Source of the DNA: Glutamicibacter ardleyensis
GTDB lineage: Bacteria > Actinomycetota > Actinomycetes > Actinomycetales > Micrococcaceae
Reading direction: 5' to 3'
Assembly (NCBI RefSeq): GCF_014644555.1
Contig: NZ_BMKX01000005.1
Coordinates: forward strand, 1 to 64,000
DNA length: 64,000 nucleotides
The notes under the pieces are model-generated. The model saw nothing but the letters and a program-made list of their open reading frames with translations. It was not told where the DNA came from and did no database searches. Shown piece by piece: positions 31,126 to 36,773 of this stretch (positions are counted from its first letter, which is position 1; every line of letters starts with the position of its first letter). The position numbers and the translations under genes were made by a program.

Positions 31126-31911
31126 ATGCCGGTTCCGTCACGCCTACTGAATTTTCTGGACACTCAAATACATTCGCGCAGTGTTGGGTGGCTGATGTTT
31201 GCAGTGCGCGAAACGATAAACCTTTTATTACCTGCGAGTTGTGCAATTTGCGAGCGTGCCGATTTTCGGCTGTGCCCCGAATGCCGGCGCAAGGTTCACC
31301 AGCAATTATTTTTGCCCCCACTCGGTGAGCAACTCCAGTTCTATGTTGAATTACCTACTCTTCAATGGCAGCTACCGGTCAGTGCGACCGGCATTTATCG
31401 TAACGAGTTGGCCCGCGCGATCTTGTCCTTCAAAAATCAGCAACGCTATTTTTTGGCACAAGAATTTGCGCCGTTTCTGGCCGCCGCAATTAACACTGCC
31501 TGCCCTCCTCGACTATTCGATCAACCCACGTTGTTGGTTCCCATGCCCAGCTCAGTGCGTGCCATAGGTACTCGTGGCTATCGTCCGGTCCAGGTGATGC
31601 TGCACGAGGCGCAACGTAGGGGCCTTCTGGCCGCGCACACTCGAACGGCGCCCTTGTTGCACTATCGGTTCGGGCGTCTTTTGAGCGGAGCGCAGAAATC
31701 TAAGTCAGGTTCGGCTCGACGTGGTGGCGACTCGCCGTTGATTGCCGAAATTCCGGCAGAACTAAGGCAGCCGATCCTCCTGATCGATGATGTAACTACT
31801 ACCGGAGCTACGTTGCGCAAAGCTGCGATTGCCTGTTTTGACGCCGGTTATGACGTGGTTGGTGCGGTCGTTCTTGCCTATACGAAACCCCCTATCGATG
31901 ACGAGGACTAA
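31126..31911 (+). CDS. ComF family phosphoribosyltransferase-like protein
   Basis: About 261 residues. A Cys4 zinc-ribbon (CAICERADFRLCPECRRKV) stands near the N-terminus, and the PRPP-binding motif (LLIDDVTTTGATLRKA) near the C-terminus. ComFC-type proteins assist DNA uptake in competent bacteria. Actinobacteria keep the gene without known competence, and its role there is unclear. The start is uncertain: ATG 31126 has TTGAGG only one base away, and ATG 31195 would still include the zinc ribbon. It lies between lpqB and hpf as in mycobacteria. Confidence 0.85.
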   Translation: MPVPSRLLNFLDTQIHSRSVGWLMFAVRETINLLLPASCAICERADFRLCPECRRKVHQQLFLPPLGEQLQFYVELPTLQWQLPVSATGIYRNELARAILSFKNQQRYFLAQEFAPFLAAAINTACPPRLFDQPTLLVPMPSSVRAIGTRGYRPVQVMLHEAQRRGLLAAHTRTAPLLHYRFGRLLSGAQKSKSGSARRGGDSPLIAEIPAELRQPILLIDDVTTTGATLRKAAIACFDAGYDVVGAVVLAYTKPPIDDED

Positions 31912-31960
31912 ACGATTTCGCTGAACGCGATATGAAATCTAGCGGTTGGGTACTTGAATC

Positions 31961-32080
31961 TTGACGGAAGTGGCATAGGGTGAAGTATGGGTTGCATCAC
32001 AGATGCAGCGAAGGCCCATCTTCAGCCTTTGGGGGAGGAAACCCCCGGGCTGTTGTGTCACCCGACTCCCTATTGGAGGA
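31961..32080 (+). promoter_or_regulatory. Structured leader (5' UTR) of the hibernation factor gene, with promoter-like element
   Basis: TTGACG at 31961-31966 resembles a -35 box; the matching -10 is unclear. The leader can fold into a closed three-way structure. GGGT 31989-31992 pairs with ACCC 32060-32063. Inside are hairpin 1 (tgcatc 31993-31998 with gatgca 32002-32007) and hairpin 2 (cagcc 32023-32027 with ggctg 32048-32052, then ggggg 32031-32035 with ccccc 32042-32046). GGAGGA at 32075-32080 is just outside the fold. A conserved hairpin motif has been described before raiA/hpf genes in actinobacteria; whether this is that motif needs a covariance search. Confidence 0.55.
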
Positions 32081-32084
32081 CACC

Positions 32085-32783
32085 ATGGAGCTGAATTACA
32101 GCGGACGTAATATCACCGTTTCGGATCGATTCCGTGAGTACGTGGACGAGAAAATCACGAAAGTTGATCAGCTGGCCAGTAAGGTCCAGCGCATCGATGT
32201 GAAAGTTGTCCAGGAAACACATGCACGCAATCAGAGCACAGCGCTCAGCGTCGAATTGACGGTCGTTTCCAAGGGGCCGGCCATTCGTGCTGAAGCCCGT
32301 GGAGCCGATAAATTTGCGGCATTCGACATTGCATTCGCAAAGCTCCTTGAACGACTGCGCAAGGCACGTGACAAGAAGAAAGTGCATCGCGGAAACCATG
32401 CGCCGATCGCAGTTCACGAGGCGACCAGTACGTTGCCGGTAGTGCAAAGCGGCAAGTCGCTGGTTGAAGAAACTCTCGAAGCACAAGCAATCGCTGAGGC
32501 TCAGGCTAACGAGAAGGAAGCGGAATACTCACCAGTTGTTATTCGCCGCAAGGTCTTCCCAGCAGAAGTCATGAGTGTCGATGATGCAGTAGACCGCATG
32601 GAGCTAGTTGGGCACCCGTTCTACCTGTTCATCGATGAAGCCTCCGGTGCGCACTCGGTAGTTTACGGACGAACCCAGTACCAGTACGGTGTGATCACCC
32701 TTGACCCTTCATTGAGTGAAAGCGACGAACTGCCAACCGAAATTCGCGGCTACCGCGATAAGGCTTTGGCAACTGAGGGTTAG
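32085..32783 (+). CDS. hpf: Ribosome hibernation promoting factor, long form
   Basis: 232 residues from ATG 32085 (GGAGGA 4 nt upstream); the frame extends into the leader but that part is RNA structure. The N-terminal S30AE domain (1-100; MELNYSGRNITVSDRFREYV) binds the 30S decoding site. A linker (100-165) and the C-terminal dimerisation domain (about 170-225; RRKVFPAEVMSVDDAVDRMELVGHPF) pair two ribosomes into inactive 100S dimers in stationary phase or starvation. Confidence 0.96.
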   Translation: MELNYSGRNITVSDRFREYVDEKITKVDQLASKVQRIDVKVVQETHARNQSTALSVELTVVSKGPAIRAEARGADKFAAFDIAFAKLLERLRKARDKKKVHRGNHAPIAVHEATSTLPVVQSGKSLVEETLEAQAIAEAQANEKEAEYSPVVIRRKVFPAEVMSVDDAVDRMELVGHPFYLFIDEASGAHSVVYGRTQYQYGVITLDPSLSESDELPTEIRGYRDKALATEG

Positions 32784-34109: not shown

Positions 34110-36773
34110 GTGGCATCATTGCTAGAGCGTATTTTACGTACCGGCGACAAGAAGACTTTAAAGACTCTTCGAGCTTACGCCGACACGATCAATACGTTGG
34201 AAGACGAATTTCGCGAAATGTCGGATGAGGAGCTTAAAGCCGAAACCGATAAGTTCCGTGCTCGTCTAGCCGAAGGCGAGAAGCTCGAAGCTTTGCTTCC
34301 GGAAGCTTTTGCTGCGGTGCGCGAAGCCTCTGACCGAGTCCTTGGCATGCGGCACTTTGACGTACAGCTCATGGGTGGCGCCGCATTGCATCTGGGTAAT
34401 ATCGCTGAAATGCGTACCGGTGAAGGTAAGACCTTGGTTGCGACAGCACCGGCTTACCTCAATGCGCTGACCGGTAAGGGCGTCCACGTGGTGACGACCA
34501 ATGACTTCCTGGCGCAGTACCAATCAGAGCTTATGGGACGTGTCTTCCGGTTCCTCGGTTTGAGCTGCGGTTGCATCTTGTCGAATATGGATCCTGCGGC
34601 TCGCCGTAAGCAGTACGAAAACGACATTACCTACGGTACGAATAACGAATTCGGCTTTGACTACCTGCGCGACAACATGGCCTGGAATAAGGAAGAACTC
34701 GTTCAGCGTGGCCACAACTTTGTCATCGTTGATGAGGTCGACTCGATCCTGATTGATGAGGCTCGTACGCCACTGATCATTTCGGGTCAGGCTTCGGGCG
34801 ACGTAAACCGCTGGTACACCGAATTCGCTAAAATCGTGAAGCGCCTTGACCGCGATGACGACTATGAGGTCGACGAGAAGAAGCGCACCATTGGTGTGCT
34901 CGAAGCAGGCATCGAAAAAGTCGAAGACTATTTAGGTATCGATAACCTCTACGAGTCGAACAACACGCCATTGATCGGTTTCCTGAATAACGCCATCAAG
35001 GCAAGGGAACTGTTCAAGAAGGATAAGGACTACGTCGTAGTCAACGACGAAGTCATGATTGTTGATGAACATACCGGACGTGCACTTGAAGGTCGTCGTT
35101 ACTCCGAAGGTATGCACCAGGCAATCGAAGCCAAGGAAAATGTCAGCATCAAGGCTGAAAATCAGACCTTGGCCACTATTACGTTGCAGAACTACTTCCG
35201 CATGTACGAAAAGATCTCGGGCATGACAGGTACGGCTCAGACCGAAGCCGCCGAGTTCATGGGCACCTACAAGCTCGGCGTGGTGGAAATCCCCACTAAC
35301 CGCCCGGCTATTCGAAACGATCAGGCTGACCTGATCTATAAGAATGAAATCTCTAAGTTTGACGCCGTTGTAGAAGATATCGCTGAACGTCACGCAAGTG
35401 GCCAGCCAATCCTTGTTGGTACCACCAGCGTGGAAAAGAGTGAGTATCTCTCGCGTCTGCTCGCTAAGCGAGGCATTCGCCACGAAGTACTCAACGCTAA
35501 GCAACACGCGCGTGAAGCGGCCGTAGTCGCTATGGCAGGTCGTAAAAACGGCGTCACCGTCTCCACCAACATGGCTGGCCGTGGTACCGATATTATGCTC
35601 GGTGGTAACGCCGAGTTCCTAGCCGTAGCGGAGATGGAACGTCGCGGACTAGATCCAGAGAATAATCCCGAAGAGTACAACAAATTATGGGACGAGGTCT
35701 TTGCGAAGGCCAAAAAGACCGTTGCCAGCGAAGCGGAAGAAGTCACCTCACTCGGTGGACTTTACGTACTCGGTACTGAGCGTCACGAATCGCGTCGTAT
35801 CGACAACCAGCTTCGTGGTCGTGCCGGCCGTCAGGGTGACCCGGGCGAATCGCGTTTCTACCTGTCGATGACCGACGATCTGATGCGACGCTTTAATTCC
35901 GGTATGGCCGAACGCATTATGAACAATCCATCGATGCCAGATGACGTGGCACTCGAATCAAAAATGGTTTCTAAGGCAATCGAATCTGCTCAGGCTCAGG
36001 TTGAAGGCGTAAACGCCGAACAGCGTAAGAACGTGCTGAAATACGACGACGTGATGAACCGTCAGCGTGAAGCAATTTATGCTGATCGTCGTGCCATCCT
36101 AGAGGGTGCCAATATCGACGAGAAGGTAGGTCACTTCCTCGAAGATGTTGTCACCGCCATGGTTAATGAAGTGACTTTGGTTGGTAATCCTGATGACTGG
36201 GATCTGAAGCAGCTATGGACGAACCTCAAGCAGCTCTATCCCATTGGCTTGACCATCGACGAGGTTGTCGAAGAGGTCAACGGGCTGGGGCATCTAACGC
36301 CAAAGTTCTTGGAGACGGAAATTCTTTCCGATGCTAAGTACCAGTATGAACTTCGTGAAAAAGCCATTGGCTCTGAGGTTCTGCGTGATCTTGAGCGCCG
36401 TGTAGTGCTTTCTACCATTGGACGTAAATGGCAAGAGCACCTCTACGAAATGGATTACCTCAAGGAAGGCATCGGCCTTCGTGCCATGGCACAGCGTGAC
36501 CCATTGGTCGAGTATCAGCGCGAGGGCTTCACCATGTTCCAGACCATGATGGAATCCATTCGCGAGGAAAGCATCGGAACATTGTTCAATCTCGAAGTTC
36601 CTACCAGTAGCGAGACCAATACTGACGGCCCTGCGGCGGTACAAACGCCAGCTTCTCCAAAGAACTTGCAGTTCACTGGGCCCGACGAAGACGGTGAAGC
36701 TAGCACTCAGGCTGAACAGGCTTCCAATCCCGCTAAGGCAGCCAAGAAAAACAAGAAGGCCAAGCGCCGCTAA
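34110..36773 (+). CDS. secA: Preprotein translocase ATPase SecA
   Basis: 887 residues; GTG start with GGGAG about 8 nt upstream. Visible motifs: Walker [16 protein letters not shown]-type [19 protein letters not shown], the crosslinking domain between, [14 protein letters not shown], and [13 protein letters not shown]. SecA drives export through SecYEG. The C-terminus is Lys/Arg-rich and lacks the SecB-binding zinc motif, usual in actinobacteria. The length fits the housekeeping SecA1 rather than accessory SecA2. Its end overlaps the convergent gene by 4 bp. Confidence 0.98.

Follow-up and report, generated by a model that had tools for sequence, protein, structure and literature searches.

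Ribosome hibernation is widespread, and to our knowledge the switching-on of hibernation factors after transcription is known in only a few bacteria. Leader hairpins that sequester the Shine-Dalgarno (SD) sequence and RNA thermometers are known kinds of regulatory element. In release 15 of Rfam, the raiA-hairpin (RF03059) is a model of 48 positions with a gathering threshold of 43.7 bits, and was reportedly named in a survey of 2017 that dealt with 224 candidate RNAs; the raiA motif (RF03072) spans 209 positions, with a gathering threshold of 101.3 bits. In C. difficile, the raiA motif RNA is called ModT (PMC11706538). Three further papers report that CsrA controls hibernation proteins in E. 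coli (PMC10746276), that YhaM trims the S. aureus hpf mRNA (PMC11347170) and that CodY and SigB control hpf transcription, which is probably not the sole level of control (PMC6256015). A search of the CsrA paper (PMC10746276) for an hpf or raiA leader gave no hit.

The window analysed here is a stretch of 64,000 nucleotides from contig 5 of a Glutamicibacter-type genome of the Micrococcaceae. The open reading frame at 32085-32783 (+ strand, ATG at 32085) we take to be hpf, encoding the long-form ribosome hibernation promoting factor; the name comes from the preliminary description of this DNA and from general knowledge of the protein family. The closest named locus is that of Arthrobacter sp. 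MYb213, where HPF is 99% identical, Glutamicibacter species scoring lower among the matches listed. Upstream, comF ends at 31911 and downstream secA begins at 34110, both names being read from the open reading frames alone. The 173-nt gap between comF and hpf holds a promoter-like block and the leader structure described below. An hpf start at the upstream GTG at 31980, which lies in an open frame, was rejected because the conserved start is the ATG behind GGAGG. A short open reading frame from the AUG at 31987 was also discarded, since some genera have ACGGG at this place.

The promoter-like block consists of a -35-like hexamer TTGAAT (31954-31959, + strand) and a -10-like hexamer TAGGGT (31976-31981, + strand). 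The relatives share a TTGAAT-like hexamer, a spacer of 16-17 nt and TANNGT, and the distance from the -10 to the first hairpin is nearly fixed. TANNNT was present in 66 of 66 relatives, a count that is circular because the pattern used to select the leaders required TANNNT, including the T of the second GTG. Other letters were not required by the selection: the T at -22 from the -10 was found in 63/66 relatives, with 60 TGAAT- or TTGA-like matches at that distance; of the 66 relatives, 49, 63 and 64 have the respective letters of the GTG before the -10, and 63 each have the first and the second G of the GTG at its end. A scan of the window for consensus sigma-70 promoters gave no site at this block. 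An A stands 6-8 nt after the -10 in all 66 relatives with a letter there, and from this spacing we infer that transcription starts near A31987 (+ strand, give or take 2), in which case the first hairpin would form the very 5' end of the message. A direct repeat, GTG-N7-GTG (31970-31982), straddles the -10, with strong conservation across the family; it could serve as an operator or belong to a special promoter.

To compare the leaders, three collections were used. A first set comprised 32 of 36 leaders found by pattern. The main alignment, made with MAFFT, contains 67 of 108 unique leaders, hand-picked for diversity; protein matches supplied 33 of them, and a first covariance model located the other 34. 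These 34 lean towards the structure, and the changes were therefore recounted on 32 of the 33 leaders found by protein match, with no RNA model involved. Left out of the main alignment were near-duplicates and some distant leaders, as well as leaders with a long insert in the central hairpin (L030, L034-L036, L038, L045 and L248-L253). One leader (L024) was included without its 5' part and was excluded from the protein-found set. Ten of 80 stretches gave no hpf start: one is a weak match of the first model away from hpf (L254), and the other nine are order-level stretches, of which no further use was made.

Folded alone, the window region does only modestly better than shuffled sequence: 4 of 200 shuffles were as good for 31960-32090 (z -2.0) and 11 of 200 for 31986-32080 (z -1.59). 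According to the comparison of leaders, the element has ∼100 nt and forms three successive hairpins: P2 at the 5' end, P3 in the centre and P4, which includes the SD. RNAalifold, run on the 67 leaders with no structure supplied, recovered all three, together with extra CC/GG pairs to the SD. In the same alignment, two-sided changes amounted to 170 cells, a number that none of 500 shuffles reached (67.7 ± 6.5), and the covariation score was 0.330, compared with 0.038-0.109 when partners were slid. Two other counts from these leaders were not outstanding: 13 pairs with any two-sided change versus 12.3 in shuffles, and 37 further pair types versus 34.1 (39 of 500 shuffles as high). The 32 protein-found leaders gave 31 two-sided cells against 8.1 ± 2.1 (0/500 as high), a covariation score of 0.237 versus at most 0.092 with slid partners, and 99.1% of cells paired; six pairs, all of them in P2 and P3, had a two-sided change, compared with 3.4 in shuffles (4/500 as high).

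P2 (31987-32019, + strand) pairs AUGGG at 31987-31991 with CCCAU at 32015-32019, and across the 67 leaders AYGGR faces its complement. Covariation is seen at column pair 9-42 (UA 31, CG 18, UG 9, unpaired 8) and at column pair 12-39 (GC 58, AU 7, GU 1), and P2 covaries in the 32 protein-found leaders too. In ensembles of whole transcripts from the inferred start, the mean probability of P2 was 0.57 and that in the window 0.23; it is weakly predicted in the window's genus (0.00-0.23 in 10 leaders). P3 (32023-32052, + strand) is formed by CAGCCU..GGGCUG and GGGGG/CCCCC, with a mean probability of 0.87 in the whole-transcript ensembles. Compensatory changes occurred in six of its six tested pairs, with 95.5% of cells paired (67 leaders), and in four of five pairs, with 98.8% paired, in the 32 protein-found leaders. 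At the level of sequence comparison, P2 and P3 are established, and we consider it very likely that the leader is a real, conserved, structured RNA. The loops and inner parts of both hairpins are free to vary, and little unpaired sequence is conserved, for the most part C44, A104 and the linker.

The preliminary description had proposed a three-way fold, in which a closing helix, a small hairpin and a long G/C hairpin form at once. Both hairpins are present in the sequence and in the folds: the small one, UGCAUC/GAUGCA (31993-32007, + strand), is the inner hairpin of P2, which the alignment shows to vary between genera, and the G/C hairpin at 32023-32052 is P3. The proposal of a conserved and structured hpf leader was likewise borne out by the compensatory changes in relatives, in both the 67 and the 32 leaders, and a regulatory role of the leader is plausible on such comparative grounds. 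The closing helix of GGGU (31989-31992) with ACCC (32060-32063), possible in the window's sequence, did not hold in the alignment, where the 67 leaders have no compensatory change in it, 78.8% of cells pair versus 79.1% in shuffles and the U-A pair is broken in 28 of 66; GGG at 31989-31991 pairs instead with CCC at 32015-32017, within P2.

Several further elements were considered and rejected. A longer first helix below P2, GAAG/CUUC, fits one subgroup, but across the wider set each of its pairs is broken by 11 to 29 of 66 sequences, and it also sits at or before the inferred start. A helix P1 of GGUGA (31979-31983) with UCACC has a 5' strand that overlaps the -10 and that changes, as judged by eye, without changes of its partner in some genera. 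The one terminator-like site of the scan, at 32028-32049, is P3, and its tail CTGTTGTGTC is mixed and not a run of U. Six leaders of distant genera of the family (L040, L044, L049, L055, L256 and L257) have at their 5' end, as seen by eye, a hairpin of AUGGG..CCCAU or CUCAU that stands about as far from the -10 as in the other leaders; their P3 and P4 parts differ or are missing.

P4 (32055-32083, + strand), predicted by the local folds and by RNAalifold, joins GUGUC at 32055-32059 with GACAC at 32079-32083 and CCGA at 32062-32065 with UUGG at 32073-32076. It thus encloses the SD, GGAGG at 32075-32079 (+ strand), of which alignment columns 119-122 are invariant and column 123 is G in 66 of 67 leaders. 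The general form is GUGUC-(A/AC)-CC with GG-AG-GRCAC, in which CC pairs with the GG of the SD. The preliminary description placed the ribosome site just outside the fold; the SD lies instead within P4, whose GUGUC/GRCAC helix, counted as at least four of five pairs, appears in 64 of 67 local folds taken from the end of P3 to the start codon. The three leaders lacking P4 in the local fold are L032, L219 and L220. Some relatives keep one half alone, as in L040, where GGCAC is present and GUGUC absent.

The mean energy of P4 in the 67 leaders was -9.2 kcal/mol, compared with -6.1 kcal/mol when the linker was shuffled. Taken singly, only 30% of these leaders fold better than with a shuffled linker (p < 0.05; mean z -1.42), whereas the same test gave 14% (mean z -0.60) for 42 hpf leaders from outside the family. 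At least three SD bases are predicted to be paired in 64/67 family leaders versus 15/42 of the outside controls, and an SD predicted to be wholly free was found in none of the 67 and in 14 of the 42. In whole-leader ensembles, P4 had a mean probability of 0.70 and a median of 0.84, with 0.86 for the window. The cells of P4 are almost invariant and 99.1% paired in the 67 leaders. The spacer reads GGCAC in 40 leaders and GACAC in 27, and pairing is kept either way (40 UG, 27 UA); the rare changes in GUGUC break the pairing. No P4 pair had two-sided changes in either the 67-leader or the 32-leader count, its variation being one-sided, and as both strands are near invariant covariation cannot prove this hairpin. 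We regard P4 as probable.

Similarity to the leader at the DNA level was detected in 19 of 58 genomes, these being every genome of the genus in the search (18, counting that of the window) and one other genome of the family. Two covariance models, built from 32 and from 67 leaders, were then searched against 295 genomes of Micrococcaceae, all of which (295/295) have hpf homologues. The first model matched 141 of them; the second matched 169, in 23 of 32 genera and with one match per genome, and was silent at E 0.01 in the other 126. Only 13 first-look candidates per genome were scored in the search with the second model, so a second, weak copy of the leader could be missed. The matches of both models in the window end at 32084, adjoining the ATG of hpf. 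For the second model, 135 places from the 169 matches (150 listed) entered the adjacency count, which left out 15 of the 150 whose hpf place was not among the matches listed; hpf had a position in 132, and all 132 end 0-12 nt before hpf on the same strand. The one weak match of the first model away from hpf (L254, genome G023, E 0.0018) was not matched by the second.

At the order level, the second model matched 20 of 297 genomes. As read from the results, 18 of the 24 family members included in this search were matched, one of them weakly (E 0.007), and outside the Micrococcaceae there were matches in two of 273 genomes (E 0.0018 and 0.0068), which is chance level for 273 genomes searched at E 0.01. 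The linker word GYYGTGTCACC had eight matches in the window's own genome, against seven for its reversed control, and so gives no sign of a regulon. These comparisons document that the leader is conserved and, among the matches checked, restricted to hpf.

It had also been suggested that the structure might be a member or an elaboration of the raiA-hairpin. RF03059, however, gave no match in the window at its gathering threshold, none in 31880-32120 when hits up to E 10 were admitted and none in 20 relatives, 16 from the family and 4 from the order, with the limit set at E 5, and a positive control, leader L162, scored 66.2 bits, the one match among 20 control sources; the suggestion is not supported. 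RF03072 was not matched in scans of the window, nor in any of 59 genomes of the order, a search that shows little, as the same model was also silent in 14 of 14 control genomes. With hits up to E 10 admitted, the leader region of the window drew no match from any further family in Rfam. Among the matches listed, the literature searched held no description of this leader, the survey of 2017 lying outside its scope, and an earlier description outside Rfam may exist.

Taken together, the reading that we favour, with slightly better than even confidence, is that of an hpf-specific cis-regulatory leader of the Micrococcaceae, without a match in Rfam, which would throttle translation by hiding the SD. 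Building on a predicted start site and a predicted P4, we infer the repression, the protection and the trigger as follows. Transcription would begin near 31987 and the leader would fold as the neighbouring hairpins P2, P3 and P4. P4 would base-pair both ends of the SD and the spacer, so that the default state would be poorly translated. The 5'-terminal hairpin would probably protect the message, with P2 and P3 acting as supports and perhaps also keeping off decay. The opening of P4 in a stationary or stressed cell, perhaps by more free 30S subunits, by a helper RNA or protein or by temperature, would then allow HPF to be made. One specific form of trigger, which we think quite unlikely, is a sensor of idle ribosomes: P4 would silence hpf while free 30S subunits are scarce, and those appearing at growth arrest would capture the hidden site. 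If this were true, the output of HPF would scale with the number of ribosomes going into storage. There might also be a switch between P2 and P4 on one side and, on the other, a fold in which the 5' GGGU/YAC strand pairs with the anti-SD strand, the GGGU/ACCC helix then being the open state; this alternative pairing is without covariation support.

The same hairpins could be read differently. The leader may mainly set the lifetime of the mRNA, P2 and then P3 blocking decay that depends on the 5' end, so that the hpf message would persist in starved cells and P4 would be incidental. P2 begins at the inferred start and covaries, and a steric shield would tolerate the free variation that P2 and P3 show in their loops and inner portions; nevertheless, this reading leaves unexplained the near-invariant and complementary GUGUCACC and spacer GRCAC, and we hold it to be possible rather than expected. 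Autogenous control, in which HPF or a ribosomal component would bind P2/P3 and lock P4 as in the leaders of ribosomal proteins, would account for the single match in each genome and for its place at hpf (132 of 132 places compared), a pattern expected of feedback and not of a metabolite regulon. Against it, the window leader showed no more than chance likeness to the 16S locus of its own genome (score 11.0 versus 9.6 ± 1.1 in shuffles, 15% of them as high), and the best match lay outside the 16S part of the stretch; mimicry of 16S rRNA at the level of sequence was accordingly rejected, a structural mimicry may exist, and we regard this form of control as unlikely.

A conserved leader with several hairpins and a plausible expression platform at the ribosome-binding site could likewise be a metabolite riboswitch, P2 and P3 forming an aptamer that moves P4. 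Conserved unpaired letters are nevertheless scarce, the loops vary and the matches lie at a single gene, hpf, in every one of the 132 places compared, which argues against a metabolite aptamer and makes a riboswitch very improbable. Finally, the conservation might belong to promoter DNA and a strong ribosome-binding site, with RNA structure being secondary: strong conservation is indeed seen in the -35/-10 block, including the G letters that flank the -10. Promoter DNA would not be expected to show the compensatory changes found in P2 and P3, which lie ∼6 to 71 nt downstream of the -10, and this explanation is scarcely credible to us.

Other structures were noted at or near hpf. In Luna-type Microbacteriaceae and related metagenome-assembled genomes (Rhodoluna, Aquiluna and others; L101, L103-L105, L107, L111-L115, L117, L118, L120, L122 and L124-L126), the last 60 nt before hpf contain another kind of short hairpin. 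It is GGCAA.GU.GCC-like, shows changes of the type CGGCU..AGCCG and directly precedes an SD that is mostly exposed. Compostimonas, Leifsonia and Okibacterium, which are other Microbacteriaceae (L098, L108 and L109), carry yet another inverted repeat upstream of hpf, GGCGUG..CACGCC or a similar one, within the leader. In Zafaria-like DNA, a near-perfect inverted repeat of ∼70 nt lies downstream of hpf (L023:2346-2416). Rfam miRNA models match both of its strands with scores under their cut-offs, a result that any long perfect hairpin might give.

The leader of the Micrococcaceae is a structured RNA without a match in Rfam, and it probably belongs to a kind already known, that of cis-regulatory leaders whose ribosome site is probably hidden. 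In the places compared its matches lie at hpf only; found in 23 of 32 genera and with a ribosome site predicted to be hidden, it offers a compact and testable handle on the control of hpf. Like the CsrA and YhaM cases, it would control the expression of a hibernation protein after transcription; there, however, control acts via an RNA-binding protein or the 3' end, whereas here a conserved 5' leader in another phylum would be involved. It shares with SD-sequestering leaders and RNA thermometers a hairpin of moderate stability in which SD and spacer are base-paired, predicted in our case, and differs from them in the upstream P2/P3 pair, which is particular to the hpf leader of the Micrococcaceae. 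The raiA motif takes its name from the same gene family and is much larger. The raiA-hairpin, as found in L162, is likewise a short RNA structure that precedes an hpf-type gene in a member of the Actinomycetota; in contrast to its model of 48 positions, the Micrococcaceae leader has ∼100 nt and three hairpins and includes the SD. With the raiA-hairpin in L162, the present element in Micrococcaceae and the Luna-type hairpin, the comparison suggests that hpf leaders differ from one actinobacterial family to another.
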